A stretch of 64,000 nt of DNA from Polyangiaceae bacterium. GTDB lineage: Bacteria > Myxococcota_A > Polyangia > Polyangiales > Polyangiaceae. The notes under the pieces are model-generated. The model worked only from the letters and a program-made list of their open reading frames with translations, searched no databases and had not been told where the DNA came from. The position numbers and the translations under genes are program-made. This document shows, in pieces, positions 16,056 through 56,993 of the stretch. The stretch is from the NCBI GenBank assembly GCA_020846005.1, contig JADLEQ010000044.1, positions 1-64,000 on the forward strand. Reading direction: 5' to 3'. The stretch's first letter is position 1. Each line of letters begins with the position of its first letter.

Positions 16056-17054
16056 TCAGAACGGCAGATCGGCGCAGCAGCCCGTGACGCAGTACTGCGT
16101 GGGGCCGCACGGGGCCTCACCCGAGGCGCCGCACGGGACTCGATCACTCGGGCAGCGTGAGCTCGCGCCCTCGCACCCGAGCGGGGGCGAGGGCTCGCCA
16201 GCGCACGTCTCGCACTCAGCGCACGGGTTGAGGCAGCTCGGCACGGGCGTGCAGGGGCGGCAGCGCGACGCGTCGCCCAGCGCTCCGGGGTCGCAGTGCT
16301 CTTTCGTCCCAGACTCGTACCCGAGCCAGACGTAGTGCCCCGAGCGCGCCGGCAGCTCGCAGCAGCCGAAGCAGTCGCAGCCGTTGGGGACGACGGGGAG
16401 GCACGTCGCGCCGCAGAGCGGCGGCTGCGCGACGGTGAGCGACGCGCACGTGCCGGCCCCGGCGGGGAAGCCCACCATCGGATCGTACGAGCACGCCGGC
16501 GTCCCGCTCGGGCCGAAGTCCGGGGGGATCGACAAGGTGTCGCACCTCTGATCCCAGAAGCAGCCGTCGTTCCCGGCGCCGGTGTCGCCATCGAAGTAGC
16601 AGTCCTGGCGGCACGGCGCGCTGTTCTCGCCCGGGATGCCGCCGAAGAACGAGTCCTCCGTGTCATCGCAGGGGCCGAGGCAGGCGTCGTCGCCGGAGTC
16701 GACCCTGCCGTCGAGGTCGTCGTCGACGCAGTTGCCGCAGTCGAAGATCCGGGTGCCGCACGCCGTGGGGACGCAGGCCGCGGCGCCGCTCGCGCCGGAG
16801 TCGGCTCCGCCGGAGGCGCCCGCCGCGCCGCCCGCGGAGCCGTCGACGGTTGCCCCTCCGGCGCCCGCGGGCGCGGCGTCCCCCGCGGCGCCCGCGGCCC
16901 CGCCGCCGGCCTGACCGGCCAGCGGACGGGCGTTCGTGCCGACGAGCACGTCCTCGCTGCAGCCGGCGGCGGCCGCCACCGCCGCGGCGAGCGTCACCGC
17001 CACGCGGAGCGCGCGGCCCAGAGGGCTCGCTGAGGGGGAACGACGGAGGGGCAC
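16056..17054 (-). CDS. Cysteine-rich lipoprotein, shared Cys domain (copy A)
   Basis: A 332-residue lipoprotein (VAAAAGC lipobox) with a short Gly/Ala-rich linker and a Cys domain of about 220 residues. Landmarks are CGNCVDDDLDGRVDSGDDAC (a DxDxDG-like calcium-site pattern), CYFDGDTGAGNDGCFWDQRC, PNGCDCFGCC, a YVWLGYE strand, CRPCTPVPSCLNPC and YCVTGCC. The same landmarks in the same order occur in the lipoproteins at 20673-23675 and 23866-25041. It lies 18 nt downstream of the anti-sigma gene on the same strand, so it probably belongs to that ECF operon. Function is unknown; the many cysteines suggest a disulfide-stabilised surface protein. Confidence 0.85.
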   Translation of the reverse strand: MPLRRSPSASPLGRALRVAVTLAAAVAAAAGCSEDVLVGTNARPLAGQAGGGAAGAAGDAAPAGAGGATVDGSAGGAAGASGGADSGASGAAACVPTACGTRIFDCGNCVDDDLDGRVDSGDDACLGPCDDTEDSFFGGIPGENSAPCRQDCYFDGDTGAGNDGCFWDQRCDTLSIPPDFGPSGTPACSYDPMVGFPAGAGTCASLTVAQPPLCGATCLPVVPNGCDCFGCCELPARSGHYVWLGYESGTKEHCDPGALGDASRCRPCTPVPSCLNPCAECETCAGEPSPPLGCEGASSRCPSDRVPCGASGEAPCGPTQYCVTGCCADLPF

Positions 17055-17072
17055 GCCGGCCGCGGCGCGCCG

Positions 17073-17792
17073 CTACGGTGCGGTGGCCGTGTCCCGTACC
17101 TTACGACGGTGCGCGGAGTCCGGGTAGTCGCGCTCGAACTTCGACGCCCGATCGCGCGCCTCGCCCGCCTTGCCCAGGCGTCGGAGCGCCTCGATCCGGA
17201 CCACCTCGCGCTCCTGCACGAGCGCTCCGTGAGGGAACCGCCGCTCATGCTCGCTCACCAGCGCCAGCGCGCGGCTGGGATCCGAGCGCAGCGCGGCCTG
17301 CGCCGTCGCGAGCAGGCTCACCTCGGCCGCGCCGGAATTCGCCGGCTTCGCCGCAGCGGAGGGGGACGTGCCGGCCTGCGGCTGCGGTGGCGCCTCGCCC
17401 TGGGCGCTCGTCGCCGCCTCGGCCGATCCGGCGGGCGACGCGGCCGGCGGGTCGCCCGTGGCGCGCGCTGGCTCCACCGCGACGTTCGTCGGCGACTCCG
17501 GCGCGCTCACGGCTGGGGTCGCCGGGCGACCGGGCGTGGGTGCCGCCGCCGTCGCCCACCACACTCCGCCCGCCACGACCGCGGCGCCCGCGAGCACCCC
17601 GAGCTTGGCGGCGATCGGGAGCCCCGCAGCCGGGAGCGGCGCCGCGAACAGTGGCTCCAGCTGGGTCGCGATCCGCTCGAGCGACGCGGGCGGTGGCGCG
17701 ACCCGCTGCGCGCCCCGCAGCGCCTCCGCTACCTCGGTGGGTGCGGCGTCGCCGCCGGCGGCCAGGCGCTCCGGATCTCGATCGGTCGTCAT
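17073..17792 (-). CDS. Membrane anti-sigma factor with TPR-like C-terminus
   Basis: A 239-residue protein. A cytoplasmic N-terminal segment of about 65 residues is followed by one transmembrane helix (KLGVLAGAAVVAGGVWWATA), a Pro/Ala/Ser-rich periplasmic linker, and a C-terminal helical repeat (RALALVSEHERRFPHGALVQ to YPDS). Its ATG overlaps the sigma gene stop (ATGA), the standard position for a cognate anti-sigma factor. No zinc-binding HxxxCxxC motif is seen, so it is not a classical ZAS. The C-terminal repeat resembles that of the protein at 54627-55400. Confidence 0.75.
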   Translation of the reverse strand: MTTDRDPERLAAGGDAAPTEVAEALRGAQRVAPPPASLERIATQLEPLFAAPLPAAGLPIAAKLGVLAGAAVVAGGVWWATAAAPTPGRPATPAVSAPESPTNVAVEPARATGDPPAASPAGSAEAATSAQGEAPPQPQAGTSPSAAAKPANSGAAEVSLLATAQAALRSDPSRALALVSEHERRFPHGALVQEREVVRIEALRRLGKAGEARDRASKFERDYPDSAHRRKVRDTATAP

Positions 17793-18301
17793 CGTGGGGG
17801 CTCCGTGGCGAGCGCGGCGATCACGACGCGACGGGCGGCGTGGAGGCGCGAGTAGGCTGTCTGCAGAGGGCAGGACATGAGCGCCGCGATCTCCTTCATG
17901 CTGACGTTCTCGATCTCGAACAGCACGAAGACCTCGCGCTTGTCGGCGTCCATCGACTCGAGCGCCGCGAGGAGCTTGCGTTGCGCCTCGCGCGCGGCGA
18001 CCGCGTCGGCCTGGGGAGGCTCGAGCTCGCTGTCGACGTCGTCTCCGACCGGCACCTCGCGGCGGACCCACGCTCGCCTCCGGTAGTCCGACGCGGCGCG
18101 GAGGCAGATGCCGTAGATCCAGGTGCGGAGCGTCGAGCGCCCCTCGAAGGCGCTGAGCCGCCTGTGCACGACGACGAACACTTCCTGGCAGACGTCGTCC
18201 ACGTCCGCCTCGGGGACGCCGAGGTGGCGGAGCGCTCGCCACACGTAGCCTGCGTGCTCATCGAAGATCCGCCGGAGCGGGGGGAGCTCCGGTCTCGTCA
18301 C
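17789..18301 (-). CDS. ECF sigma-70 family factor (module 1)
   Basis: A 170-residue sigma factor with only regions 2 and 4. Region 2 includes ADVDDVCQEVFVVVHRRLSA and LRTWIYGICLRAASDYRRR. Region 4 includes LESMDADKREVFVLFEIENV, SMKEIAALMSCPLQTAYSRL and HAARR. It would direct RNA polymerase to its own set of promoters when released by the anti-sigma factor encoded next to it. The start is GTG 18299-18301. The upstream gene on the same strand encodes a secreted outer-membrane-like protein, 67 nt away. Confidence 0.92.
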   Translation of the reverse strand: MTRPELPPLRRIFDEHAGYVWRALRHLGVPEADVDDVCQEVFVVVHRRLSAFEGRSTLRTWIYGICLRAASDYRRRAWVRREVPVGDDVDSELEPPQADAVAAREAQRKLLAALESMDADKREVFVLFEIENVSMKEIAALMSCPLQTAYSRLHAARRVVIAALATEPPR

Positions 18302-18368
18302 GGATCGCCCCGATGCCAGCCGGCGGAGAGGCGATCCAGCAGTGAGCGGCGGGCCGGCCTGGCAATTA

Positions 18369-19388
18369 TCATCGAGATCGCAAGATCAGCCCGAGCCCGA
18401 GCTCGCCCCAGACGGGAGGCGGCGTCCATACCACGACGCGTTCGCCGACGGAGGAGAGCCCGTAGAGGTGGTCCCGTGTCAGGACGGCACCGGCGCGCCC
18501 GGCGAGCCCGAGCGCGAGCGACTCGGTGAGCGCCACCTCCAGCGACGGGCCGGCGAGGACCCCGAAGTGCACGCGCCCCACGGCGCGCCTCCGGTCCCAA
18601 CCGATCCCCTCGAAGCGCGCCAGGCCGCCGCGTCCCGCCGCGCAGGTACGGAGCGCGAACGGGGGCGCCGCCAGCGCCGGGGAGCACGCCACCGGGCCGC
18701 CCTCGAAGAGCGACACCCGCGCGCCCGGATCTCGATCGGCCGCCGAGGGCCACCACGCGGCGGCCTCGACACCCGCCCACCATCCGTCCCCCGGCGAGAT
18801 CCCCGCGGCGCCGATCAGCCCAGGCGACGCGTTCGGCAGAAGCCCGGTCGAGGCGGCGCCGAAGACCCACGCCCGGAGCTCGGTCGCGGCCGCCGTCACG
18901 GGCTCGACGTGCAGGGGCGTCGGCCCGGTGCGGGCGCGGCGCGGCGCGGCGGCTGGCTTCGCGGGCGCTCCAGAATTGGCGCTCGGGGGCGGCGGGAGCT
19001 CGGCTCGTCGCAGATCGATCATGAGGGCGATGACGAGCGGGAGCGAGGCCCGGAACGCTTCGCACCCGGGCCCCTCGGCTCGCAGCTCGCGCTCCCCGAC
19101 CTCCACGCCCGCGGAGGTGCGGAGCGCGAGCCGGACCACCCTCGCGCCACCCACGGAGGAGTACTCGACTCGCAGCACCAGCTCAGCGGACCCTCCGCCG
19201 ATCGCCTTGCGGCCGAGCCGCGCCTCGACGGCCCGCGCCAGCTCGGGCGCAGCGGGGCAGGCCTCGGGCGCCGCGGGCACGACCTCGAGCTCGGCCCGAA
19301 CGAAGGCGCCGTCCGCGGGATCGCCGCGGGCTCCGAGCAGGCTGGCTCCGAGCGCGCCGACGGCGAGGAGGGGTCCGGGGCGCGTCAC
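18369..19388 (-). CDS. Predicted secreted outer-membrane-associated protein upstream of sigma gene
   Basis: A 339-residue product whose GTG start (19386-19388) follows a GGGAG site. It begins with a signal-peptide-like LLAVGALGASLLGARG. The first 120 residues look like a small globular domain (AELEVVPAAPEACPAAPELA, ending FRASLPLVIALMIDL). After a Pro/Ala linker come glycine-rich amphipathic strands ending GELGLGLILRSR, resembling a beta-barrel end. I do not recognise a named family. The same place in the third ECF module (56037-56993) is also held by an outer-membrane-type protein. Confidence 0.65.
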   Translation of the reverse strand: MTRPGPLLAVGALGASLLGARGDPADGAFVRAELEVVPAAPEACPAAPELARAVEARLGRKAIGGGSAELVLRVEYSSVGGARVVRLALRTSAGVEVGERELRAEGPGCEAFRASLPLVIALMIDLRRAELPPPPSANSGAPAKPAAAPRRARTGPTPLHVEPVTAAATELRAWVFGAASTGLLPNASPGLIGAAGISPGDGWWAGVEAAAWWPSAADRDPGARVSLFEGGPVACSPALAAPPFALRTCAAGRGGLARFEGIGWDRRRAVGRVHFGVLAGPSLEVALTESLALGLAGRAGAVLTRDHLYGLSSVGERVVVWTPPPVWGELGLGLILRSR

Positions 19389-19480
19389 GGCTCCCGGAGC
19401 GTCGCACGATCGGGCTACGGGCTGCACCCCGGCGGGAGCGGGCCCGTCAGAATCGAACGGCCGGCCGCCCACTCACGGGT

Positions 19481-20080
19481 GTGGAAGCCGCAAGCCGCGT
19501 CGTCGTCGCGCTCCTCGAGCAGCTCCAGGCGTCGCTCGGGCGCGAGATCGTGCAGCGCCGGATCCCCGGTCGTCTCCGCGGCTGGCTCGAGGTGAGCGGG
19601 CTGGGGCGGGCCGGTGAGCCGCCACCCGGCAGCGTCCGTGATCTGCTCGCCGCCGTCGACGTGGCGTTCGGCGCTGGCGACGGCCGCGTGTGGGCGAGCC
19701 TCGGGCGCGAGCTGCACGAAGCGGTCGGCGCGCGCACCGGGAGCGAGCCGATCGAGCAGGATGCCGAGGACGCGCTGGCCTTCGCGCGCCACTTCCTCGG
19801 GCCGCGGCTCACGCTCGCCTGGGCCCCGGAGGCGGACGGCCGGCGGCAGCTCACCGTCGCCGTCGAGGGCGAGCCGTCGGTCGCGCGCGTCCTCGCCCAA
19901 TTCGTCACGGGCTGGCTCGCGGCCGGCGACGTGGCTGCCGGCGCTGGCCACTGCTCGGTGGAGGCTGCGGTCGAGAGCGTCGGCGCGCGCGCGCGCCTCA
20001 CCTGCTGGCCGCGCACGCCGTCCTCTCAGCCGCCCGCGAGCGGTGTCCGCGGCGACTCGCCGGTCGCGCACACCGCGTGA
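19481..20080 (+). CDS. Hypothetical single-domain protein (199 aa)
   Basis: Starts at GTG 19481, with no strong ribosome-binding site. The product is an alpha/beta-looking domain: VVVALLEQLQASLGREIVQR, an FARHFLGPRLTLAWAPEADG centre, VARVLAQFVTGWLAAGDVAA and a final ARARLTCWP. The layout recalls lineage-restricted myxobacterial single-domain proteins (the DUF2378 type), but the match is too loose to assign. No signal peptide or metal motif is seen. It stands alone, divergent from the OMP-sigma operon (start codons about 90 nt apart), and converges on the next gene with a 6-bp hairpin (20089-20106) between them. Confidence 0.6.
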   Translation: MEAASRVVVALLEQLQASLGREIVQRRIPGRLRGWLEVSGLGRAGEPPPGSVRDLLAAVDVAFGAGDGRVWASLGRELHEAVGARTGSEPIEQDAEDALAFARHFLGPRLTLAWAPEADGRRQLTVAVEGEPSVARVLAQFVTGWLAAGDVAAGAGHCSVEAAVESVGARARLTCWPRTPSSQPPASGVRGDSPVAHTA

Positions 20081-20104
20081 TCGAGCGCGAGCGGAGCCGC
20101 CCGC

Positions 20105-20629
20105 TCAGGGGAGGCAGACCTTGCGGTTCGCGGCCCCGCCGCCCGTTGAACGGCACGTGAAGGCGGAGCCTGCTTCCCGCTGGCAGTAGAGCGTCTCGTC
20201 GGCCCCGGCGTCGTCCGGCCAGCCGCCGTCCGGCGCGACGAGGTCCGCCGCCTCACAGCTCAAGAAGCACATCTTCTGGCCGGTGGACTCGAACGGCGAG
20301 CAGACCTGGCGGAGGCCGGTCTTGCACTCGCCGTCGACCGCGCAGCAGTCGGCGTCCGTCTCGCACAGGTGCGTGCAGTAGCCGTCCTCCACGCGATCGA
20401 GGCACTGCACCTCGCCGGCGAGCGCGCCGGCGTCCACGCTCGGGTAGCAATCGGTTGCCGCCTCGCACGACTGCCCCGTGTTGTCCGGGCCGCGCCCGCC
20501 GGCGCCACCGCCGCCGCCGCTGGAGCTCTCCTCCTCGCCACACGAGACGGCGAGGAAGAGCAGCGCCAGGAGCGCGCCGGCCGCGCGCCAGCGGCGCGTG
20601 GGTTCGAGGCTTCGTGAAGGGGTCGTCAT
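20105..20629 (-). CDS. Small cysteine-rich lipoprotein
   Basis: A 174-residue lipoprotein with lipobox LAVSC. After a Gly-rich linker come 13 cysteines in short spacings (CEAATDCYP, CTHLCETDADCCAVDGECK, SPFESTGQKMCFLSCEAADL, YCQREAGSAFTCRS), ending KVCLP. It does not contain the shared Cys domain of its neighbours. It follows the 1000-residue lipoprotein on the same strand after 43 nt, so the two are likely co-transcribed. The role is unknown, probably cell-surface. Confidence 0.75.
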   Translation of the reverse strand: MTTPSRSLEPTRRWRAAGALLALLFLAVSCGEEESSSGGGGGAGGRGPDNTGQSCEAATDCYPSVDAGALAGEVQCLDRVEDGYCTHLCETDADCCAVDGECKTGLRQVCSPFESTGQKMCFLSCEAADLVAPDGGWPDDAGADETLYCQREAGSAFTCRSTGGGAANRKVCLP

Positions 20630-20672
20630 GGGGTGGATCCTTCCCCCGCCGCGGGCGGCGCGGGCGCGTCGT

Positions 20673-23600
20673 TCAGGAGGGCACGTCTTGGCAGCAGCCG
20701 GTGATGCAGTACTCGCCGGCCGGGCAGTCCGCCTGGCCGGGCTGGCCGCACGGAGCCGCGCCCCCGTCGCACTGCTGCACGGTGCACTCCGGTGGGAGGT
20801 CCGGCTTGCCGAGGCAGATCTCGCAGGTCGCACACGGGTTCAGGCAGGCGGTGACCTGCTGGCACGGCTTGCAGCGGAGCGGGTCGCCCAGGTGATCCAG
20901 ATCGCAGCTCCCGTCCGTCAGCGTCGCCGTCTCCGAGCCGAGCCACACCGGGTACGCGATGCCGGGGAACGTGCAGCAACCGAAGCAGTCGCAGCCGTTC
21001 GGCGTGAGCGGTCCACAGTAGCTCCCGCAGAGCGCGTCCTGCGTGGTGCGGAGCTGCGCACACGTCCGGCTCGTCCCCGGGATGCTGGCGTTCTCGTTGT
21101 ACCCGCACTGCGACCCCTCCGGCGGATAGTTCGGCGGGACCTCGTTCGGGTCGCACTTGTGGCTCCAGTAGCAGGAGTCGTTGCCGGCCCCGGTGTCCTG
21201 GTCGAAGTAGCAGTCCTGCTTGCAGGGCGAGTTGTTCTGACCGGAGATGTTCCCCTTGAAGCCCGACTCGTTGTTCGAGCACGGGCCGACGCAGTGCTCG
21301 TCCCGCGCGTCGATCTTGCAATCGTTGTCGTCGTCCAGGCAGTCGCCGCACCGGTACGTCTTGCCCTGGCAGGTGGCGATCTCGCAGAAGTTGCCGCAGC
21401 CGCGCGTCGGGTCGCAGGTCTCCCCGCAGCCGCACAACGAGTCGTCCGGGACGGGCACGCAGCGATCCGCCGCCTCGTCGCAGATCTCCGAGGTGCACGC
21501 GATACCGTCGTCCGGGCAGGCGAGCGCTGCCGCCGCCTGGCAGTCGTTCACCGGGTCGCACACCTCCGCGCCGTTGCAGAACGAGCCGTCGTCGCAGGAG
21601 GAGTCGACCGGGACGTTGCTGCAGCCCGTGAGCGGGTCGCACACGTCGTCCGTGCAGGCGACGCCGTCGTAGCAGTTGAGGGCCGGACCGGAGACGCAGC
21701 CGGTCGCGACCACCGCCCCCGGCGTCCCGGGGGCACACGTCTCTGGGCCGTTGCAGACGGTGCCGTCGGCGCAGCGCGCGTGGATCGGCGCGTGCGCGCA
21801 GCTGTCCGCGGACTCGTCGCACGAGTCGTCGGTGCACGAGGCGCCGTCGTCACAGTTCGGGGCGCTCCCCGCGACCGGCTTGCAGACACCCGGCGAACCG
21901 CCTGCCAGATCGCAGAACTCGCCGCCGTTGCAGAACTGGCCGTCGTCGCACTGGCCGTCGGAGGTGCAGCTCTGACCCGTCTGGCAGCCGCCCGTCGAGC
22001 AGAACTGCCCGTTCGGGCACAGCGCGCTGTTCAGCGTCGTCGCGCACTGGTCGGCCGACTCGTCGCACGCCTCGACCGTGCACGCGTAGGCGTCCGCGGG
22101 GCAGGTCACCGCGGTGCCGGGGAGACACCCCGTCGTCGCGTCCGCGCCCGCGCTCGTCGGCGCGCAGGACTCCTGGCCGTCGCAGTAGAGGCCGTCGTTG
22201 CACGCCCCGTGGTTCGGCACGAACGCGCACGAGTCGGCGTTCTCGTCGCACGAGTCGGCGGTGCACGACTTCCCGTCGTTGCAGGTGGGCGCCGCACCCG
22301 CCACGCACCCCTGGAGGGCGTCACAGCGCTCCGCGCCGTCGCAGTACAGGCCGTTGTCGCACGCGGAGTTCTGCGGGGCGAACGCGCACGCGTCGGCTCC
22401 CTCGTCACAGGAGTCCGCGGTGCACGCGAGGCCGTCGTTGCAGGCCGGCGGAGTCCCGGCGACGCACCCGGTCGTCGGGTCAGCGGCGCTGCTGGCCGGA
22501 TCGCAGGCCTCGACGCCAGTGCAGAACAGAGCGTCGTCGCAGAGCCCGCTCTGCGGGATCGAGACGCAGGCGTCCGCCGACTCGTCGCACGTGTCGACGG
22601 TGCACGAGAACGCGTCCGGCGCGCAGCTCACCGCGACCCCGGCCACGCACCCATCGGAGTCTGCCGACGGGTGGTTCGGGTCGCAGGCCTCCGCGCCGTC
22701 GCAGAACTGGCCGTTGTCGCAGTCGTTGGCGCTGGCGCAGCCCGTCCACCCGCCGCCGGTGCCGCCGCCTCCTGCTGCGCCGGCCGCACCGCCCGCGCCC
22801 GCGCCGCCCGCGCCTGCCGTGCCGCTCGCGCCTGCCGTGCCGCCCGCCGCGGAGTCCGGCCCGGCGTCGAACGCGCTGCCGCCGCTGCCCGCGCTGGCGC
22901 CCGCGCCGCTCGCGCCGCCCGTCGAGCCGCCGCCGCTGCCCGCGGAGCCGCCCATCGCGCCGGAGCCGCCCGCACCCGCGGTCGCGCCCGCGCCCGCCGA
23001 GCCGCCGCCCGCGCCGCCCGCACCGGCCGCGCCGCCGCCTCCTGCCGCTGCGCCGCTGCCGGCGGCGCCGCCCGAGCCCGCGGCACCTGCCGCAGCTCCG
23101 GCCCCCGCCGCTCCGCCGGTCGCGCCCGCGCCGCCGGAGCCCGTCGCGCCGGCGCCAGCCGCGCCGCCCGAGCCTGCGGCGCCCGCGGTGCCGCCGCCGC
23201 CGGCCGCGCCGCCCGAGCCTGCGGCGCCCGCGGTGCCGCCGCCGCCGGCCGCGCCGCCCGAGCCTGCGGCGCCCGCGGTGCCGCCGGCGCCAGCCGCGCC
23301 GCCCGAGCCCGCGGCGCCCGCGGTCCCGCCGCTGCCGGCCGCGCCGCCCGAGCCCGCGGCGCCCGCGGTCCCGCCGCCGCCGGCCGCGCCGCCCGAGCCT
23401 GCGGCGCCCGCGGTGCCGCCGCCGCCGGCCGCGCCGCCCGAGCCGCCCGAGCCGGCCGACCCGCTGCTGCCTGCCGTCCCGCTCGTCCCGCCGGTCGCCG
23501 ACGAGCCTCCCGAGCCGCCGCTCCCGGCGGAGCCGCCCCCGCCGGTCGCGCCGGCGCCGTCGGTCGAACCGTCCAGCTTGCCGCCCCCGCCGCCGCCGCC

Positions 23601-23675
23601 CTCGCCGCTCCCTCCGCACGCTGTCAGCAGCACACAGACGGAGAACACCCCCGCGAGCGAAGTCCCGATTCTCAT
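20673..23675 (-). CDS. Very large cysteine-rich repeat lipoprotein, shared Cys domain (copy B)
   Basis: A 1000-residue lipoprotein (VLLTAC lipobox; AAGGA Shine-Dalgarno). In order: about 290 residues of Gly/Ala/Ser repeats with a perfect 15-residue period in places; about nine Cys-rich units of 40-60 residues (pattern C-x-NG-x-FC-x-G-x-E-x-CD ... C-x-DG-x-x-CT-x-D-x-CDE-x-x-D-x-C); and a C-terminal domain of about 220 residues shared with 16056-17054 and 23866-25041 (CGDCLDDDNDCKIDARDEHC, PNGCDCFGCC, YCITGCC). The middle repeats resemble the disulfide-knot repeats common in myxobacterial surface proteins. It is probably an elongated, heavily disulfide-bonded outer-membrane protein. Divergent from copy C across 190 bp. 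Confidence 0.85.
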   Translation of the reverse strand: MRIGTSLAGVFSVCVLLTACGGSGEGGGGGGGKLDGSTDGAGATGGGGSAGSGGSGGSSATGGTSGTAGSSGSAGSGGSGGAAGGGGTAGAAGSGGAAGGGGTAGAAGSGGAAGSGGTAGAAGSGGAAGAGGTAGAAGSGGAAGGGGTAGAAGSGGAAGGGGTAGAAGSGGAAGAGATGSGGAGATGGAAGAGAAAGAAGSGGAAGSGAAAGGGGAAGAGGAGGGSAGAGATAGAGGSGAMGGSAGSGGGSTGGASGAGASAGSGGSAFDAGPDSAAGGTAGASGTAGAGGAGAGGAAGAAGGGGTGGGWTGCASANDCDNGQFCDGAEACDPNHPSADSDGCVAGVAVSCAPDAFSCTVDTCDESADACVSIPQSGLCDDALFCTGVEACDPASSAADPTTGCVAGTPPACNDGLACTADSCDEGADACAFAPQNSACDNGLYCDGAERCDALQGCVAGAAPTCNDGKSCTADSCDENADSCAFVPNHGACNDGLYCDGQESCAPTSAGADATTGCLPGTAVTCPADAYACTVEACDESADQCATTLNSALCPNGQFCSTGGCQTGQSCTSDGQCDDGQFCNGGEFCDLAGGSPGVCKPVAGSAPNCDDGASCTDDSCDESADSCAHAPIHARCADGTVCNGPETCAPGTPGAVVATGCVSGPALNCYDGVACTDDVCDPLTGCSNVPVDSSCDDGSFCNGAEVCDPVNDCQAAAALACPDDGIACTSEICDEAADRCVPVPDDSLCGCGETCDPTRGCGNFCEIATCQGKTYRCGDCLDDDNDCKIDARDEHCVGPCSNNESGFKGNISGQNNSPCKQDCYFDQDTGAGNDSCYWSHKCDPNEVPPNYPPEGSQCGYNENASIPGTSRTCAQLRTTQDALCGSYCGPLTPNGCDCFGCCTFPGIAYPVWLGSETATLTDGSCDLDHLGDPLRCKPCQQVTACLNPCATCEICLGKPDLPPECTVQQCDGGAAPCGQPGQADCPAGEYCITGCCQDVPS
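23160..23445 (-). repeat. 45-bp tandem repeats coding GSGGAAG-GGTAGAA units
   Basis: Six full units and one partial of 45 bp encode 15-residue repeats (GSGGAAGxGGTAGAA, x = G, S or A). Several units are identical at DNA level. This is the regular core of the longer low-complexity linker of the 1000-residue lipoprotein and a likely site of length variation. Confidence 0.8.
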
Positions 23676-23865
23676 CTTCGGTTCGTCCTTGGTTCTAGGT
23701 GGGGCGAGCGACCCGCTCGGCCCCCCGGCGTCAGTGGTCCGAGCCGCCGCCGTTTACGACGAGGGAAGCGCTGGCCCGCCGCCGCTTCCCGGACGACTGG
23801 CCGGCGGGTGCGGGCGAGCGTGATAACGGGGCGCGCCTCCAGCCACGAAACGGCGGAGACTCACC

Positions 23866-25041
23866 GTGAACACCAACTCGAGATCAGCCAGATGGTTCGC
23901 GTTCCTCGGCGCCCTGACGCTCGCGGCGGCGGGCGCGTGCAGCAGCGACTCGGAGGAGGAAGGCGGCGGCGGAGGTTCGGGCACGGACGGCGGTGACGCT
24001 GCGGCCGGCGCGGCGGGGAGCGACGCCTCCGCGGGCTCCGGTGGCGGGGCCGGCGCCGCTGCCGGGGCCAGCGGTGGCGGCGGGGTCGCGGGTGGCGGTG
24101 GTTCGTCTGCCAGCGCCGGCACCGGCGCCGTGTCGGGGACCAGCGGTACTCCCGGGTGGGACGCCGCCGCCGATGGGCCGGTCCAGGTCTCGGACGGTGG
24201 CGTCGTGATCACCGAGGACGGCGGGACGAGCTACGTCTGCTACCCGACGCGCTGCGCCGGCAAGCTCCTCGAGTGCGGCAACTGCCTCGACGACGACGGC
24301 GACGGCCTCGTCGACTGGCGCGATCCGGAGTGCCTCGGCCCGTGCGACAACTCGGAGGGCCCCGGGCTCGACAGCGCCGTCGGCGGCACCGTCGGCGCGA
24401 GCTGCGGCGTCGACTGCTACTTCGATTTCGGCAACGGCCCCGGCAACGACGACTGCCACTGGGATCACCGCTGCGACCCGCTCGCCCCCGAGGCGCCGTC
24501 CTGCCCGCACGAGCCCTCGCGCGTCGGGACGAGCGAGTGCCCGGACACGCAGTCCCAGCAGTGCGAGGACTTCTGCAAGCCGTACACGCCCAACGGCTGC
24601 GACTGCTTCGGCTGCTGCACGTTCCCCGCGCTCGAGGGGGCGGGCGATGGCGGCGGACCGCTCTACGTGTGGATCGGGACGCTCGACGACTCGAACGTCT
24701 CGACCTGCACGCTCGCGGACGTGACCGATCCGGTCAAGTGCAGGCCGTGCACGCCCGCGGGCAACTGCCTGAACGAGTGCGGACGGTGCGAGATCTGCGT
24801 GGGCAAGCCCGAGGTCCCGGACGACTGCTATCCGCCCGCCGATGCCGGCGTCGGTGGGAGCGGCGGCTCGTCGGGCTCCGCGGGGAGCTCGGGGAGCGCC
24901 GGATCTGCCGGATCGGGGGGTACCGGAGGGTACCCCGGCCAGTGCCCCGAGGGGATCACGCCCTGCGGCCTCCCGGGCCAGGGCCCCTGCGCGCCGGACG
25001 AGTACTGCCTCACCGGGTGTTGCAGAGACGCGCCGCAGTGA
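23866..25041 (+). CDS. Cysteine-rich lipoprotein, shared Cys domain (copy C)
   Basis: A 391-residue lipoprotein: GTG start with GGAG upstream, lipobox AAAGAC, Gly/Ser/Ala linker of about 90 residues, then the shared Cys domain. Landmarks: CYPTRCAGKLLECGNCLDDD, CYFDFGNGPGNDDCHWDHRC, PNGCDCFGCC, LYVWIGTLD, CRPCTPAGNCLNEC and YCLTGCC. Unlike copies A and B it carries a second Gly/Ser insert of about 25 residues just before the last cysteine cluster. It is transcribed away from copy B, so the pair may share a regulatory region. Confidence 0.85.
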   Translation: MNTNSRSARWFAFLGALTLAAAGACSSDSEEEGGGGGSGTDGGDAAAGAAGSDASAGSGGGAGAAAGASGGGGVAGGGGSSASAGTGAVSGTSGTPGWDAAADGPVQVSDGGVVITEDGGTSYVCYPTRCAGKLLECGNCLDDDGDGLVDWRDPECLGPCDNSEGPGLDSAVGGTVGASCGVDCYFDFGNGPGNDDCHWDHRCDPLAPEAPSCPHEPSRVGTSECPDTQSQQCEDFCKPYTPNGCDCFGCCTFPALEGAGDGGGPLYVWIGTLDDSNVSTCTLADVTDPVKCRPCTPAGNCLNECGRCEICVGKPEVPDDCYPPADAGVGGSGGSSGSAGSSGSAGSAGSGGTGGYPGQCPEGITPCGLPGQGPCAPDEYCLTGCCRDAPQ

Positions 25042-29732: not shown

Positions 29733-30197
29733 TCAGTCGGTAGCGGCGTCGGCGCTGCCGCCGCAGGTCGCGGCCGGCAGCTCCGCGCAGTACGCGTCGC
29801 ACACCGTGCCGCACGCGTCCCCGCAGTAGGCGCACCGCTCCGCGGCGAGGTACGCCGCGACGTCGGCGTCCGAGGTGCAGTGCGTGTCGATGCACGCGGC
29901 GACGCAGGCTGCGCCGGCGGCGCCCTCGTTCACCTTGCACCCGCTCGACCCGGACCCCTTCTTGCCGAACGCGCAGGCGAGGATCGCTGCGCAGCCGGGG
30001 CTCGCCTGGCAGGCCTCCCACTCGGGACACTCCCCGACGCGGCAGCCACCGCACTGGTCGCAGGTGCCTGCGTCCGCACACACGCTCGGCGAGGCGACCT
30101 GGGCCGGCTCACCGGAGTCGCCGCAGGACGGGATCACCAGCGCGCCCAGCCCCAGCGCCAGCCCGAGGACGAGAGCTCTTCGCATGGTCCGCAGCAT
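29733..30197 (-). CDS. Cysteine-rich lipoprotein of ECF module 2
   Basis: A 154-residue lipoprotein with lipobox LVIPSC and 18 cysteines after it (CADAGTCDQCGGCRVGECPE, WEACQASPGCAAILACAF, CVAACIDTHC, CAYCGDACGTVCDAYC). The spacing resembles small myxobacterial Cys-rich lipoproteins that carry a helix-rich disulfide module, not the domain of about 220 residues seen elsewhere in the window. It is the last gene after sigma, anti-sigma and Spy-like genes on the same strand (35-nt gap). Start at ATG 30197 or ATG 30185. Confidence 0.75.
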   Translation of the reverse strand: MLRTMRRALVLGLALGLGALVIPSCGDSGEPAQVASPSVCADAGTCDQCGGCRVGECPEWEACQASPGCAAILACAFGKKGSGSSGCKVNEGAAGAACVAACIDTHCTSDADVAAYLAAERCAYCGDACGTVCDAYCAELPAATCGGSADAATD

Positions 30198-30232
30198 AGC
30201 CCGGGCCGTCTCCGTGGGGCCAGCGCTGGCGC

Positions 30233-30724
30233 TCAGTCGTCGCCGCGGTGCTGCCGGCGGCGGTCCCGCCGCGCGTCGCGGCGGTGGCGCTGGAGCGCCC
30301 GGAGCAGCTTCGCCTGCTGCTTGGGCGTGAGCAGCTTCTCCAGCTCCGCGATCTCCTGATCGGCGAGCGACCGGAGCTTGGCGCGGGCGGCCTTGACCCG
30401 CTCGAGCGCCTTCGTGTACGCCTGCTGGTCGCCGCTGTCGTCCTCCAGCAGCTCGGCCAGATCGCGCAGGGCGCGCCGCTGCTCCTTGCGCGCCTTCTGC
30501 CGCTCCGGGGCGCGCTTCTTCAGCACCTTCTCCACCTCGGCGGCCCTGCGGTCGTCGAGCCCCACCTCGCGCCGGAGGATCTCGCCACGGCGCCGCTCGA
30601 CGCGCTCCGCGCGCGCGCGGTCCTCGTCTGCCCGCGCGGACGGGGCCGCCGCCGCCACGGCGACCACGACCGCGCTCGCCAGCGCGGCGCGGCACGCGAG
30701 CCGGGCGAGCCTGCCTGTCGTCAT
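30233..30724 (-). CDS. Spy/CpxP/ZraP-like periplasmic protein
   Basis: A 163-residue exported protein: signal peptide ALASAVVVAVAAAAPSARA, then a long, very basic helical region (EVEKVLKKRAPERQKARKEQ) with the LTPxQQ motif as LTPKQQAKLLRALQRHRR, characteristic of the Spy/CpxP/ZraP group of periplasmic chaperones and stress sensors. Its ATG overlaps the anti-sigma stop (ATGA), giving sigma, anti-sigma and periplasmic sensor in one operon. This suggests the sigma factor responds to envelope or metal stress; that is inference. Confidence 0.8.
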   Translation of the reverse strand: MTTGRLARLACRAALASAVVVAVAAAAPSARADEDRARAERVERRRGEILRREVGLDDRRAAEVEKVLKKRAPERQKARKEQRRALRDLAELLEDDSGDQQAYTKALERVKAARAKLRSLADQEIAELEKLLTPKQQAKLLRALQRHRRDARRDRRRQHRGDD

Positions 30725-31185
30725 CCGTCCTCGAAATCCAGCCATGCGTCGTCCTCCTCGTCGTCGTCGTTGGCCCAGGGATCCGGGTCATCGAGCCAGT
30801 CCGCGCCGAGCTCGTCCACCTCGTCGAGATCGGCGAGGACCTCGTCGTTCGTCGCGCTCTCCTCCGACGCTGGCGCCGGCGGTGCATGGGGAGGGGGCGA
30901 CCCGGCCGTACCGCTCGAGGTACCGCTCGGAGCGCCCCCGCCCATCGCCGCCGTGGTCTGCGCCGAGTCGCCACGCTCCCCGCCGCCGGTCGATCCGACG
31001 AAGACGGCCGCGCCGAGCGCGACGAGCCCTGGCGCCACCCAGGCCCACCAGCGCAGCCCGTGACCCCGCCGCGGCCGCTCGGGGATCTCGCGGGCTCGGG
31101 CGGCGAGGCGGACGAGGGTCGTCGGGCTGGCGGGCTCAGCGGAGCGGTCGAAGAGCGCGCGCAGGTCGTCGTCCGGGTCGCTCAT
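30721..31185 (-). CDS. Membrane anti-sigma-type protein (module 2)
   Basis: A 154-residue protein. The cytoplasmic segment (DLRALFDRSAEPASPTTLVR) precedes one transmembrane helix (WWAWVAPGLVALGAAVFVG). A Gly/Ser/Pro linker and a strongly acidic periplasmic tail (DDEEDDAWLDFEDG) follow. The start overlaps the sigma stop. The very basic downstream Spy-like protein and this acidic tail are complementary in charge, so direct contact in the periplasm is possible. Confidence 0.75.
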   Translation of the reverse strand: MSDPDDDLRALFDRSAEPASPTTLVRLAARAREIPERPRRGHGLRWWAWVAPGLVALGAAVFVGSTGGGERGDSAQTTAAMGGGAPSGTSSGTAGSPPPHAPPAPASEESATNDEVLADLDEVDELGADWLDDPDPWANDDDEEDDAWLDFEDG

Positions 31186-31844
31186 GCGGGGTCTCCTCGC
31201 TGCGCGACGGCATCGGCGAGCTCGGCGCGCAGCGCCTTCATGGCGTGGTGCGCGTGCACGCGGACGGCGCCCGCCGTGCTGCCGACGGCCTGCGCGATCT
31301 CCGCGTCGTCGAGCCCGCCGTCCAGACGCAGGATCGCGACCTCCTGCTGCTTGCGCGGGAGGCGGGCGAGCGCGGTACGGATCCGCTCGGCGAGCCGCAG
31401 GGCGCTGACGGCCGCGGCGGGGGAGGGGGTGCCCTCGGGCGGCTCGGCGGCGTCTTCGCGGTGCCGGCGGCGCACCTCGCCGCGCAGCAACGTCCTCGCC
31501 TGTTGAGCGGCGACCGCCGCGAGCAGCGCGCGCAGGGAGGTCCCCGGCGTGTACCGCTCGAGCCGCTGGTAGACGAGCGTCAGGGCCTCCTGCAGGGCAT
31601 CCTCGGCGAGGGCGTGGTCGCCTGCGGACGCGCGCATCGCGATGCGGTGGAGCATGGGGAGGTGCGGCTCGACGAGCGACGCGAACGCGCGGCCGTCGCC
31701 CGCCAGCGACCGCTGCACCAGGTCGCGCTCGACCCGCAGCTGGGTGCCCTCCGCTCCGGCCGGCCCCGGCTCGGGCGCCGGTCGGCTCACGAGCCAGCCG
31801 GGCCAGAGGCTGGCGCCGCCGTGTGAGAGCGGGATCGTGGGCAT
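31182..31844 (-). CDS. ECF sigma-70 family factor (module 2)
   Basis: A 220-residue sigma factor. After about 40 disordered residues, region 2 reads LVQRSLAGDGRAFASLVEPH to HALAEDALQEALTLVYQRLE. Region 4 reads IRTALARLPRKQQEVAILRL, then DDAEIAQAVGSTAGAVRVHA and HHAMKALR. It is a group-4 (ECF) factor whose cognate inhibitor is the overlapping downstream membrane protein. ATG 31844 follows GAGGTGCG. Confidence 0.9.
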   Translation of the reverse strand: MPTIPLSHGGASLWPGWLVSRPAPEPGPAGAEGTQLRVERDLVQRSLAGDGRAFASLVEPHLPMLHRIAMRASAGDHALAEDALQEALTLVYQRLERYTPGTSLRALLAAVAAQQARTLLRGEVRRRHREDAAEPPEGTPSPAAAVSALRLAERIRTALARLPRKQQEVAILRLDGGLDDAEIAQAVGSTAGAVRVHAHHAMKALRAELADAVAQRGDPA

Positions 31845-53470: not shown

Positions 53471-54580
53471 TCAGAGGCACACGAACCGGCACGCGTTCGC
53501 GACGCAGACGTGCTCGGCGCACGAGCCGTCCGAGCACGGCATGCAGAGCTCGGTCGCCGGGCAGTCGCCGTTGGCGTTGCACCACGGCTCCGTCGGGTCG
53601 TCCGGGCAGACGGTGCCGCACGCGCCGTCGACGCACGCGCTCGAGCCGCACCCGCCGTTCGCGCAGGGCAGGCAGGCGAAGTACTGCGGGCACTCCGCGT
53701 CGCTCGAGCAGGCGTTGCCCGGCCCGCCGCAGTCGCTCGGGGGCGTCGGCGCGCAGGCGCCCGCGCCGTCGCAGAAGAACAGCACCGCCGGAGCCACGCA
53801 GCTCGGATCGCCGGGAGGGCACGGGCTGCAGCGGTCACCGCAGGCGACCCCCGCGCACGGGTCATATCCCGCGCAGCCGCCGACGGAGCCCACGCACTGG
53901 CCGTTCACGCACGCCGTGGCGGGACAGCTGAAGGAGCCGTCCGGACACGGCTGGCACGGCGCGCCGATCTGCGGGCAGTCCGCGTCGGACCCGCACTGCG
54001 CACCACCGCAGCCCGGCCAGCTCCCCAGGCACTGGCCCTGGTCGCAAACCACCGTGGGACACGAGACCGAGCCGTCCGGGCACACCTCGCAGGGCGCGCC
54101 CAGCTGCGGGCAGTCCTCGTTCGACTGGCAGGTGCCCGCGGGATCGCAGACGGGATACCCCATGCCGCAGCCACCGTTGGCGTCACAGAACATCTCGACG
54201 GCCGGCGCTCCGCAGTCGGCGTCGTCCGGCGCGCACGGCGAGCAGGAGGCGCCGCACGCCCGCCCCGCGCAGGGATCCCAACCGCCGCCCGCGCAGTGGG
54301 GCAGCGCGTTCTGGCAGGTCCCCGCCTCGTTGCAGTACTTGAGGCTCATGTCCTCGACGCAGTCGGCGTCCGTCGGGTCGCAGACGCTGCATGCGTCGCC
54401 GCACTCGCGGTTCGCGCAGGCGTCGTACCCGGGCTGGCCGCCGCTGCCGGACGAGCCGCCACCGCCCGACGAGCCTCCGCCGCCGAGGTTGTCGTCCCCG
54501 CTCCCCAGGCTGGAGGTGCCGCCGCAGGCGGCGAAGAGAAGGGCAACGGAGCTTGCTGCAAGAACGTGCTTGATCATCAT
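53471..54580 (-). CDS. Cysteine-rich repeat lipoprotein of ECF module 3
   Basis: A 369-residue lipoprotein with lipobox LLFAAC and a short Gly/Ser linker. It is built of repeated Cys-rich units: CANRECGDACSVCDPTDADC, CAGRACGASCSPCAPDDADC, and CAGVACGDRCSPCPPGDPSC (one type); CPQLGAPCEVCPDGSVSCPT and CPQIGAPCQPCPDGSFSCPA (a second type, nearly identical units). These resemble disulfide-rich surface repeats. It follows the anti-sigma gene by 46 nt on the same strand and completes the third ECF module. Confidence 0.82.
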   Translation of the reverse strand: MMIKHVLAASSVALLFAACGGTSSLGSGDDNLGGGGSSGGGGSSGSGGQPGYDACANRECGDACSVCDPTDADCVEDMSLKYCNEAGTCQNALPHCAGGGWDPCAGRACGASCSPCAPDDADCGAPAVEMFCDANGGCGMGYPVCDPAGTCQSNEDCPQLGAPCEVCPDGSVSCPTVVCDQGQCLGSWPGCGGAQCGSDADCPQIGAPCQPCPDGSFSCPATACVNGQCVGSVGGCAGYDPCAGVACGDRCSPCPPGDPSCVAPAVLFFCDGAGACAPTPPSDCGGPGNACSSDAECPQYFACLPCANGGCGSSACVDGACGTVCPDDPTEPWCNANGDCPATELCMPCSDGSCAEHVCVANACRFVCL

Positions 54581-54626: not shown

Positions 54627-55400
54627 TCACGGGGCGTGGGCTCGGCTCGCCCCGCCCCTCGGCGGGCCGGCGAGGAGCGCGCGCGCCCGCGCGGCCTGGG
54701 GGCTCCCGGGGTGTGCGTCGACGAGGCGCTGCGCCAGGACGCGCGCCGGGGTGGAGTCGCCCGCGCGCTCGAGCGCCGTCATTCGGAGGTACAGGGCCTC
54801 GGGGGCGAGCGCTCCGGCGGGGAACTCGGACTGGTAGCGGTCGAGCGCGGCCAAGGTCCCGCGCGGATCTCCGGAGGCGAGCACCGCGCGCGCGCCGTCG
54901 AGGGCGCGCACCTCGGCGCCGAGCACACCGCTCGGGTCGGCGCTCGCGGCCACGACCGGGGGCCGGGCCGCCGCCGCGCGCGCGGTCGCCGGAGCCGCCG
55001 GCTCCTCACGGCCCGGCTCGGCAGCCGGCGCTCGGAGGTGCGCCGGAGGCGCCGGGGGCGCTACCCTCCGGGGGCTCGGCGCGACGACCTCGGTCGGGGC
55101 GGCGGTCGGCTGCACCGTTCGGACGACGCCCATGGTCGCGAGGCCGCCAACGGCGCCGAGCCCCGCCCATTTCAGCACCACCGCTGCCGTGGTCGTCCAC
55201 CACCCCGCCGCGGCGCCCGCGGACGACAGCTCCGTCGCCGCGGCCGCGCTCGTCGCCGCGGCGCCGAGCGCGACGCCGGCGCCCAGCGCGGCCAGCGTGC
55301 GCTCCATCGCGTCCGACGGAGGGAGCTCGCTGCGGCCCGCGCGCAGGAGCTCTCGCTCGAGCGTGCCGGCGGTCTCGAACAGGCGGGGAGGGTCGGTCAT
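54627..55400 (-). CDS. Membrane anti-sigma-type protein with TPR-like C-terminus (module 3)
   Basis: A 257-residue protein. After about 30 cytoplasmic residues come two possible membrane stretches: AALGAGVALGAAATSAAAAT and AVVLKWAGLGAVGGLATMGV. A Pro/Ala linker follows, then a C-terminal repeat: LAALDRYQSEFPAGALAPEA to AHPGSP. The C-terminal block matches that of 17073-17792 (FPxGAL, then ALxRxG, then PxS). The ATG overlaps the sigma stop (ATGA). Confidence 0.72.
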   Translation of the reverse strand: MTDPPRLFETAGTLERELLRAGRSELPPSDAMERTLAALGAGVALGAAATSAAAATELSSAGAAAGWWTTTAAVVLKWAGLGAVGGLATMGVVRTVQPTAAPTEVVAPSPRRVAPPAPPAHLRAPAAEPGREEPAAPATARAAAARPPVVAASADPSGVLGAEVRALDGARAVLASGDPRGTLAALDRYQSEFPAGALAPEALYLRMTALERAGDSTPARVLAQRLVDAHPGSPQAARARALLAGPPRGGASRAHAP

Positions 55401-55993
55401 GATCGGGCTCCGGGGGCATCGAGGCGCGCGACGCGCTCGCTGAAGTGGGCACGGGCGCGACGGAGGCGCGAGGCCACCGTGCCCGGCGGGAGGCCGAGCG
55501 CCTCGGCGATCTCGGCCATGGTGAGCTCCTCGAGCTCGTAGGAGACGAAGACGTCGCGGAGCTCGGGGGGCATCTCGTCGAGGACCGTGTCGAGGAGCCG
55601 GCGTGCCCGCTCTCGGTCGCACAGCTCGTCCGGCCCCGGCGACGAGTCTCGGCGCGTCGTCAGCGCGTCCTCGGTCGTCTCGCGGCGCCTCGCCGCGGTG
55701 CGCCGCCAGCGCTGCGCCGTCCGCAGCGCCACGCCGAAGAGGAAGGAGCGCTCACACCCCGGCCGGATGCAGGCGACCTTCCCCGAGGTGGTGAGGAACA
55801 CCTGCTGCGCGGCGTCATCGGCGTCGCCCGCCGGGACGCCGAGGCGGCGGAGCGACCTCCAGACGAAGGTGAAGTGCTGGCGGACCAACGCCTCGAGCGT
55901 CGCGCAGGTCGACGGCAGCGGCTCGACGTGAGGGTCGCCGAGGTCGAGGGCGGCTCCGGAAGCCAGCATCGGCATGGATGCCCGGTCACGCAC
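55397..55993 (-). CDS. ECF sigma-70 family factor (module 3)
   Basis: A 198-residue sigma factor. Region 2: LVRQHFTFVWRSLRRLGVPA, GDADDAAQQVFLTTSGKV, then FLFGVALRTAQRWRRTAARR. Region 4: LLDTVLDEMPPELRDVFVSY, ELEELTMAEIAEALGLPPGT, VASRLRRARAHF. It is the same operon type as 17789-18301, with an outer-membrane-type gene upstream and an anti-sigma gene overlapping downstream. The start is GTG 55993; in-frame ATGs at 55975 and 55969 are alternatives. Confidence 0.9.
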   Translation of the reverse strand: MRDRASMPMLASGAALDLGDPHVEPLPSTCATLEALVRQHFTFVWRSLRRLGVPAGDADDAAQQVFLTTSGKVACIRPGCERSFLFGVALRTAQRWRRTAARRRETTEDALTTRRDSSPGPDELCDRERARRLLDTVLDEMPPELRDVFVSYELEELTMAEIAEALGLPPGTVASRLRRARAHFSERVARLDAPGARS

Positions 55994-56036: not shown

Positions 56037-56993
56037 TCACTCCGGGTCCCACTGGAAGCCGACCCGCAGCCCGCCCCGCAAGAACTGGGCGGCGCCCCGC
56101 GCGGTCGTCTCGGGGTAGTGCTCGACGGCCAGGTGCACCCCGGCCCAGGGCAGCACGCCCTGGGTGCGGAGCGCGGCGTAGCCGACGGCCAGCCCCGCTC
56201 GGCCGCCGAGGCTCAGCCGGGTGTCGCTCGCCTGAAACCACCCGACCGGCGCCAACTCGGCGTCGAGCTGCCACGCCACGCCCCGGACGCGAACCAGCAC
56301 GGGCAGCGCCGGGAAGTAGTTGATCACGAACGACTGCGTGCGCGCCCCGGAAGTCGTGGTCACGCCCTGCTCGAGCATGGCGCCTCCGCCGAACTCGGCG
56401 CCCGCCAGCAGCGTGACCGAGCCGCCGAACCCCCAGGCCGGGAGGAGCCGACCGGCGCCGCCGCCGCCGTACGTGAGCCGCCCCTCGAACCTCCGCACCT
56501 GGAGCATCCCGCCCGTCTCGAGGCTGACCGTGAAGCGATCGCGGTCCGTCTGGCGGCCCTCGAAGGCGAGCGAGGGCTCGAGCCAGAACGGGCACTCGCC
56601 GGCCGACGCTACCGCGTGCGAGAGCGCCTGCGCGCGCCGCTCCGCCGACAGCGCGGCGACGAACCCGGCGTCGTCCGCGTCGCGGACCCGCTCCCAGATC
56701 GCGCGCGGATCGCCGCGTCGGGCGCGGTCCGCCTCCGCGAGCTCGAGCGCTCGCGCGCGCGCCGCGGGCGTCGCCCTGCAGATCGTCTGCAGCATCGTGG
56801 GGTGGATCTCGGCATACGCCTCCGCGTCGAGGAACCACCCGCTCGACGCCTCGGCCTCGACGATCCGCGCCGCGTCGGCGAGCACGCCCTCCGCGGAGCG
56901 CGCGACGGCGTCCGCTTCCGCGCTCGGGTCGGCGCGAGCCGCGGGCGACAGCGCGGCCGCGAACAGCGCCGCGGCGAGCGTCCAGCGATTCAC
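56037..56993 (-). CDS. Outer-membrane beta-barrel-type protein upstream of sigma gene (module 3)
   Basis: A 318-residue protein: signal peptide LAAALFAAALSPAARA, a helical N-terminal domain (AEADAVARSAEGVLADAARI, ARARALELAEADRARRG), then barrel-like strands from about 130 on (FTVSLETGGMLQVRRFEGRL, GFGGSVTLLAGAEFGGGAML, LVRVRGVAWQLDAELAPVGW) ending FQWDPE. It lies 43 nt before the sigma gene on the same strand. An outer-membrane sensor controlling the anti-sigma factor is a reasonable guess, not shown. Confidence 0.72.
   Translation of the reverse strand: MNRWTLAAALFAAALSPAARADPSAEADAVARSAEGVLADAARIVEAEASSGWFLDAEAYAEIHPTMLQTICRATPAARARALELAEADRARRGDPRAIWERVRDADDAGFVAALSAERRAQALSHAVASAGECPFWLEPSLAFEGRQTDRDRFTVSLETGGMLQVRRFEGRLTYGGGGAGRLLPAWGFGGSVTLLAGAEFGGGAMLEQGVTTTSGARTQSFVINYFPALPVLVRVRGVAWQLDAELAPVGWFQASDTRLSLGGRAGLAVGYAALRTQGVLPWAGVHLAVEHYPETTARGAAQFLRGGLRVGFQWDPE

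Follow-up and report, generated by a model that had tools for sequence, protein, structure and literature searches.

A probable sigma/anti-sigma cassette with a tagged, exchangeable lipoprotein in Polyangiales

Genes of the two operons and their conservation

The stretch of DNA analysed here (the window, 64,000 nucleotides of contig JADLEQ010000044.1 from a Polyangiaceae bacterium whose assembly comprises 5.70 Mb in 119 contigs) carries two operons, M1 and M3, each with a predicted or putative outer-membrane barrel protein, an extracytoplasmic function (ECF) sigma factor, a membrane protein taken as its anti-sigma factor and a lipoprotein. Judged from sequence comparison, they are very probably copies of a Polyangiales-centred trans-envelope cassette whose lipoprotein often bears a short tag behind its acylated cysteine. 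Genes were found by open reading frame listing and with a codon-usage gene caller, the starts being those of this simple caller, and the coordinates that an earlier sequence-only reading had given for M1 and M3 were reproduced:

16056-17054, minus strand: M1 lipoprotein of the LIP1 family (lipobox, tag CSEDVLVG, linker, Cys-rich domain)
16938-16961, minus strand: M1 N-terminal tag C-S-E-D-V-L-V-G, beginning at the predicted acylated Cys
17073-17792, minus strand: M1 putative anti-sigma factor (position, topology; ATGA overlap with the sigma gene)
17789-18301, minus strand: M1 ECF sigma factor (Sigma70_r2, Sigma70_r4_2 and TIGR02937, all over cut-off)
18369-19388, minus strand: M1 outer-membrane protein, OMP1 family, predicted periplasmic alpha/beta domain plus barrel (structure model, neighbourhood)
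53471-54580, minus strand: M3 lipoprotein, 15% Cys, tag CGGTSSLG (homologues in the same slot elsewhere)
54503-54526, minus strand: M3 N-terminal tag C-G-G-T-S-S-L-G (side-by-side reading of mature N-termini)
54627-55400, minus strand: M3 putative anti-sigma factor with periplasmic tetratricopeptide repeats (TPR) (weak TPR_14 and TPR_6; profile A1, E 4.7e-54; ATGA overlap with the sigma gene)
55397-55993, minus strand: M3 ECF sigma factor (Sigma70_r2, Sigma70_r4_2 and TIGR02937 over cut-offs)
56037-56993, minus strand: M3 signal-peptide protein in the barrel slot, a putative barrel by gene position, its sequence unrelated to the M1 barrel

Both sigma factors are of the ECF type, with sigma-70 regions 2 and 4 only, and the anti-sigma gene that follows starts, as had been noticed, within an ATGA that overlaps the sigma gene by 4 nt. 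The M1 anti-sigma has a short cytoplasmic N-terminus, one transmembrane segment, a Pro/Ala-rich linker and a C-terminal TPR region; the C-terminal repeat previously seen in two anti-sigmas is this TPR, with weak matches to Pfam TPR_14, TPR_6 and YfiO, and the Pfam and NCBIfam scans of the anti-sigma gave nothing beyond weak TPR-type or below-cut-off matches. The model of the M1 barrel protein (AlphaFold2, mean predicted local distance difference test score, pLDDT, 78.5) begins with a periplasmic alpha/beta domain, in which two Cys are conserved, and ends in a barrel of 8 strands, residues 166-339 matching the NspA, OmpA and OprF barrels in structure comparison (VIA Z ~17), and no family was returned for OMP1 and its relatives in the Pfam and NCBIfam scans. 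The M1 lipoprotein gene begins with GTG 18 nt past the anti-sigma gene, an alternative internal start being possible at 17003. A scan for sigma-70 promoters found no promoter-like site, and a terminator scan gave two weak terminator-like sites, both intragenic and neither between the anti-sigma and lipoprotein genes.

In order to evaluate how far this arrangement is kept, M1 and M3 sigma homologues were collected from 59 relatives and their surroundings read, giving a discovery set of 59 deduplicated pairs of sigma and TPR-type anti-sigma; many of the sequences compared come from metagenome assemblies. An M1-type barrel gene lies upstream in 48 of the 59 pairs and the 4-nt overlap is present in 46. 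A hold-out of 50 loci was then picked by the anti-sigma alone from genomes unused before, and here the sigma gene is immediately upstream in all 48 testable loci and an OMP1-type barrel gene is found in 43 of 47. The proposed conserved sigma/anti-sigma core is borne out. The sensor had been suggested to be swapped around it, but the barrel protein mostly is not, one family standing before sigma in 48/59 and 43/47 cassettes and M3 being an exception. The anti-sigma profile A1 matches 140 of 184 genomes of the order, with up to 14 or more matches per genome, and 91 of 379 genomes sampled across the phylum. Homologues of the M3 sigma occur in 34 of the 59 relatives (E <= 1e-30), and those of the M3 lipoprotein occupy the same slot at four loci in other genomes (L205, L207, L266 and L272). 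In the source genome, contig C52 holds a third M1-type cassette (locus L072) and contig C54 a fourth, weak A1 match. Elsewhere on C54, locus L075 (6117-9053) is a variant cassette with sigma, TPR anti-sigma, a putative barrel protein and a Cys-rich lipoprotein tagged CSESDVVLG; its anti-sigma N-terminus contains Cys and looks zinc-finger-like by eye, and its match to TPR_Slam was insignificant (E 0.009).

A constant tag on exchanged lipoprotein bodies

The next gene was visible in 108 deduplicated cassettes, and it encodes a lipoprotein in 70, a non-lipoprotein in 24 and lies on the opposite strand in 14, so that lipoproteins beside these sigma genes are not confined to this genome, as they would have been under the refuting outcome that the sequence-only reading had set. 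Lipoproteins were called by a simple lipobox rule, with background lipoproteins drawn from the fetched loci, and those of the cassettes usually lie within about 30-60 nt of the anti-sigma gene. When the mature N-termini are compared side by side, often a tag of the form C-x(3-5)-[V/S]-x-[LVI]-G stands right behind the predicted acylated Cys, further examples being CGEIVPIG, CSSSEVPIG, CTEDVSVG, CGIDVSLG and CSTDVNLG. With the expression fixed before the sequences were fetched, the hold-out has the tag in 15 of 26 directly following lipoproteins versus 8 of 42 others (p = 0.0013). The pooled count, made with an expression that had been widened somewhat once the data were known, is 39/70 next-gene lipoproteins versus 14/163 background lipoproteins (p = 4e-14), and 16/33 versus 2/45 in the strict-lipobox subset; the tag counts are slightly diluted by loci of the M2 type described below, whose anti-sigma is captured by the iterated anti-sigma profile and not by A1.

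The 39 tagged lipoproteins fall into 22 body clusters without BLAST similarity between them, which upholds the earlier suggestion that the lipoprotein in this slot is exchanged. The Gly of the tag is almost always at Cys+7 or +8, and the loosely constrained position three residues before it holds Val or Ile in 10 of the 22 cluster representatives versus ~4% expected, the p value being a little too favourable, as some residues are barred there by the expression itself. The distance to the anti-sigma gene does not exceed 150 nt for any of the 39 tagged genes (median 32 nt), and the untagged ones are farther away (median 97 nt).

A control within one family is offered by LIP1, the conserved family of the M1 lipoprotein, whose Cys-rich domain has invariant CDCFGCC and D-x-D-x-D segments. 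The domain has no family in Pfam or NCBIfam and occurs in named relatives among Polyangiaceae, Sorangium, Polyangium, Minicystis and other Myxococcota; its AlphaFold2 model is confident (pLDDT 89.5, predicted template modelling score 0.88), the fold is presumably disulfide-stabilised, and a Foldseek search of the PDB gave nothing at E <= 10, which is not proof of a new fold. Among the 121 members, the tag is present in 7 of 8 readable proteins encoded directly behind a TPR anti-sigma versus 5 of 66 without a linked sigma or anti-sigma (p = 3e-6). At least two of these five exceptions sit at cassettes after all: at L412 the tagged LIP1 gene is directly upstream of a barrel-sigma-anti-sigma operon, and at L081 it is close to an M1-type sigma with an anti-sigma frame disrupted by a stop. 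The latter contig (G008:C73, loci L081 and L318), on which a single TAG interrupts the frame and a tagged LIP1 gene lies nearby, could possibly represent a decaying cassette or a sequence error. Within the window, three LIP1-family genes are found in 9 kb (16056-25041), one of them encoding the C-terminal part of a Cys-rich repeat protein of 1000 aa, and the copies at 20673-23675 and 23866-25041 are untagged, the tag being confined to the copy in the sigma cassette. Since LIP1 proteins are tagged by cassette position and their bodies are otherwise mostly untagged, the tag follows the locus and not the body; together with its persistence on unrelated bodies, this leads us to conclude that the bodies are swapped and that the tag belongs to the cassette.

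The trait singled out by the sequence-only reading was Cys-richness, and it is indeed common. Given that such genes are common here (7 Cys-rich lipoproteins in the 64 kb window), three of them beside sigma operons prove little alone, yet against the measured background the association with the cassette is real: 37 of 70 next-gene lipoproteins have at least 7% Cys versus 5 of 60 background lipoproteins (p = 2e-8), and in the discovery set 20 of 42 close co-directional next genes are Cys-rich versus 8 of 165 background co-directional neighbours. As a defining trait, Cys-richness was rejected, the tag being found also on slot lipoproteins with 0-4% Cys; the constant tag had been overlooked.

At six loci (L166, L176, L188, L390, L432 and L441) an untagged LIP1 gene has another conserved lipoprotein nearby, which bears a motif of the type C-S-V-x-x-Q-T-G-C. 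The LIP1 proteins of Sorangium and relatives begin with CS-x-S-[TA]-VDGAA, which may be a tag of another kind. The M3 lipoprotein gene is followed directly, on its own strand, by three bactofilin genes in tandem (PF04519, 52003-53325).

The M2 operon and likeness to known systems

A third operon, M2 (29733-31844), had been placed on the same plan as M1 and M3. That plan holds for those two; M2 is a distinct Metal_resist operon, composed as follows:

29733-30197, minus strand: neighbouring Cys-rich lipoprotein, without tag (gene listing)
30233-30745, minus strand: Metal_resist protein (PF13801 over cut-off)
30721-31185, minus strand: anti-sigma factor, no TPR match
31182-31844, minus strand: sigma factor (gene listing)

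Homologues of its sigma are present in 8 of the 59 genomes at E <= 1e-30, its own genome counted; six of the other seven keep a Metal_resist gene after sigma/anti-sigma, the seventh has sigma and anti-sigma only, and a Cys-rich lipoprotein stands in the slot in none of the seven. M2 was therefore rejected as a third copy, its anti-sigma having no TPR match and its orthologous loci no Cys-rich lipoprotein, and since the orthologues keep Metal_resist without the lipoprotein we regard it as a separate system with a coincidental lipoprotein neighbour. It belongs to the sigma/anti-sigma/Metal_resist (CnrYXH/Spy-like) operon type, in which the Metal_resist periplasmic protein follows the pair, an order kept in the orthologues.

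In regards to known systems, the cassette resembles FecI-FecR-FecA in its ECF sigma, its single-pass anti-sigma with a periplasmic C-terminal domain and its barrel with an N-terminal periplasmic domain, all from adjacent genes. However, the M1 and M3 anti-sigmas have TPR and no FecR domain (none matched in 15 anti-sigmas of profile A1), the M1 barrel is predicted to be 8-stranded and OmpA/NspA-like instead of a TonB-dependent receptor (no plug or signalling domain of such a receptor was matched by Pfam in OMP1 or relatives), and the tagged, exchangeable lipoprotein is an addition. FecR-plus-TPR relatives of the anti-sigma are found beside related ECF sigma genes at L166 and L382, with LIP1 a few genes downstream and, at L166, also a putative barrel protein, which suggests an evolutionary link of the cassette with FecR signalling.

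The lipoprotein export signal (LES) of Bacteroidetes, K-(D/E)2 or Q-A-(D/E)2 next to the +1 Cys (PMC5080379), is likewise a short signal adjoining that Cys and common to unrelated lipoproteins, whereas the cassette tag C-x(3-5)-[V/S]-x-[LVI]-G is tied to one operon type, and neither CSEDVLVG of M1, CGGTSSLG of M3 nor the tagged set has the LES motif. Slam shares the general ingredients of TPR, barrel and adjacent surface lipoprotein (PMC5449769), but in the cassette TPR and barrel are separate proteins with the TPR on the inner-membrane anti-sigma, and Pfam scans of the M1 and M3 proteins gave no match to Slam, which has TPR and a 14-stranded barrel in one chain. In Cpx/NlpE and Rcs/RcsF of E. 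coli a lipoprotein also reports the state of the envelope or of trafficking to an inner-membrane regulator, with a single fixed lipoprotein and a two-component or phosphorelay output in place of swapped bodies and sigma/anti-sigma.

How the cassette may signal

In cell-surface signalling (CSS), the N-terminal domain of the outer-membrane transducer contacts the periplasmic part of the anti-sigma (PMC11637429, PMC7186176). By analogy, the cassette may act as a CSS-like trans-envelope relay of barrel domain, TPR anti-sigma and tagged lipoprotein, a reading for and against which we find the case evenly balanced. The periplasmic domain of the barrel protein would meet the TPR tail of the anti-sigma in the periplasm, and the tag would be the docking site by which any lipoprotein body is coupled to the relay, with either the TPR or the periplasmic domain of the barrel protein as its receptor; that this is the TPR rather than the barrel is a tentative and somewhat doubtful choice. 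Alternatively, the coupling may be indirect, the tag sending the lipoprotein to the surface by way of the barrel. A change in the lipoprotein, such as a ligand on its exposed domain or failed arrival at the surface, would alter the hold of the anti-sigma on sigma and adjust expression of the cassette and further targets.

Several points weigh against this interpretation. The membrane protein is inferred to be an anti-sigma only from its position, gene overlap and single transmembrane segment, that is, from position and topology. The lipoprotein is absent from the next slot in 38 of the 108 cassettes, and 31 of the 70 next-gene lipoproteins miss the strict tag, several of these resembling variants with A or D for G. 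A shared ECF promoter was sought upstream of the barrel genes and none was found, enumeration against simple shuffles giving only composition-driven, uninformative pairs. Finally, the tag might serve export or sorting in general, this operon type merely making use of it.

An LES-like sorting signal, read by the barrel or by a general machine, with sigma/anti-sigma sensing the export state, seems possible but rather unlikely to us. An unexported lipoprotein would then induce the cassette, as in NlpE/Cpx, and this reading overlaps with the relay. The tag's position directly behind the acylated Cys resembles LES (PMC5080379), sensing of lipoprotein trafficking via one lipoprotein has a precedent (PMC6538781), and one signal recurring on at least 22 unrelated bodies would be expected of a sorting signal. 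However, the V/S-x-L-G residues are unlike the acidic LES, and LIP1 outside cassettes is mostly untagged (the 5 of 66 above), so the tag is no general requirement for the LIP1 body. The lipoprotein could also be a mere regulon target beside its regulator, its tag an ancestral remnant or a local sequence constraint without signalling role, as the 38 cassettes with no lipoprotein beside the anti-sigma and the variable order seen at L412 would allow; we consider this improbable given that the tag persists over 22 body clusters without detectable homology and that within LIP1 its presence depends on the locus. A chance neighbourhood, in which abundant Cys-rich lipoproteins happen to follow sigma operons, holds for M2, and the plain number of such genes in the window agrees with it. 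For M1 and M3 it is already contradicted by the 37/70 versus 5/60 Cys-rich shares and the tag statistics, and as a general explanation it is very improbable indeed.

What is new here is the tag after the predicted acylated Cys, common to cassette lipoproteins with otherwise unrelated bodies; a literature search of open-licence papers found no description of the cassette or the tag. A cassette with a changing body and a constant tag points to an undescribed link of surface-type lipoproteins to gene control. It is conceivable, although we would sooner bet against it, that this is a general plug-in system with one tag as a universal connector read by the pair of TPR anti-sigma and barrel, allowing evolution to couple nearly any domain of surface lipoproteins to a dedicated sigma, in up to 14 or more parallel channels per myxobacterial genome. 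Myxobacteria possess very many ECF sigma factors whose inputs are unknown, and to many of these the cassette with its constant tag would assign an input component, the lipoprotein plus the barrel. The tag would also give a sequence rule for finding more cassettes, and three-compartment signalling by lipoproteins would become testable by single-residue mutants.

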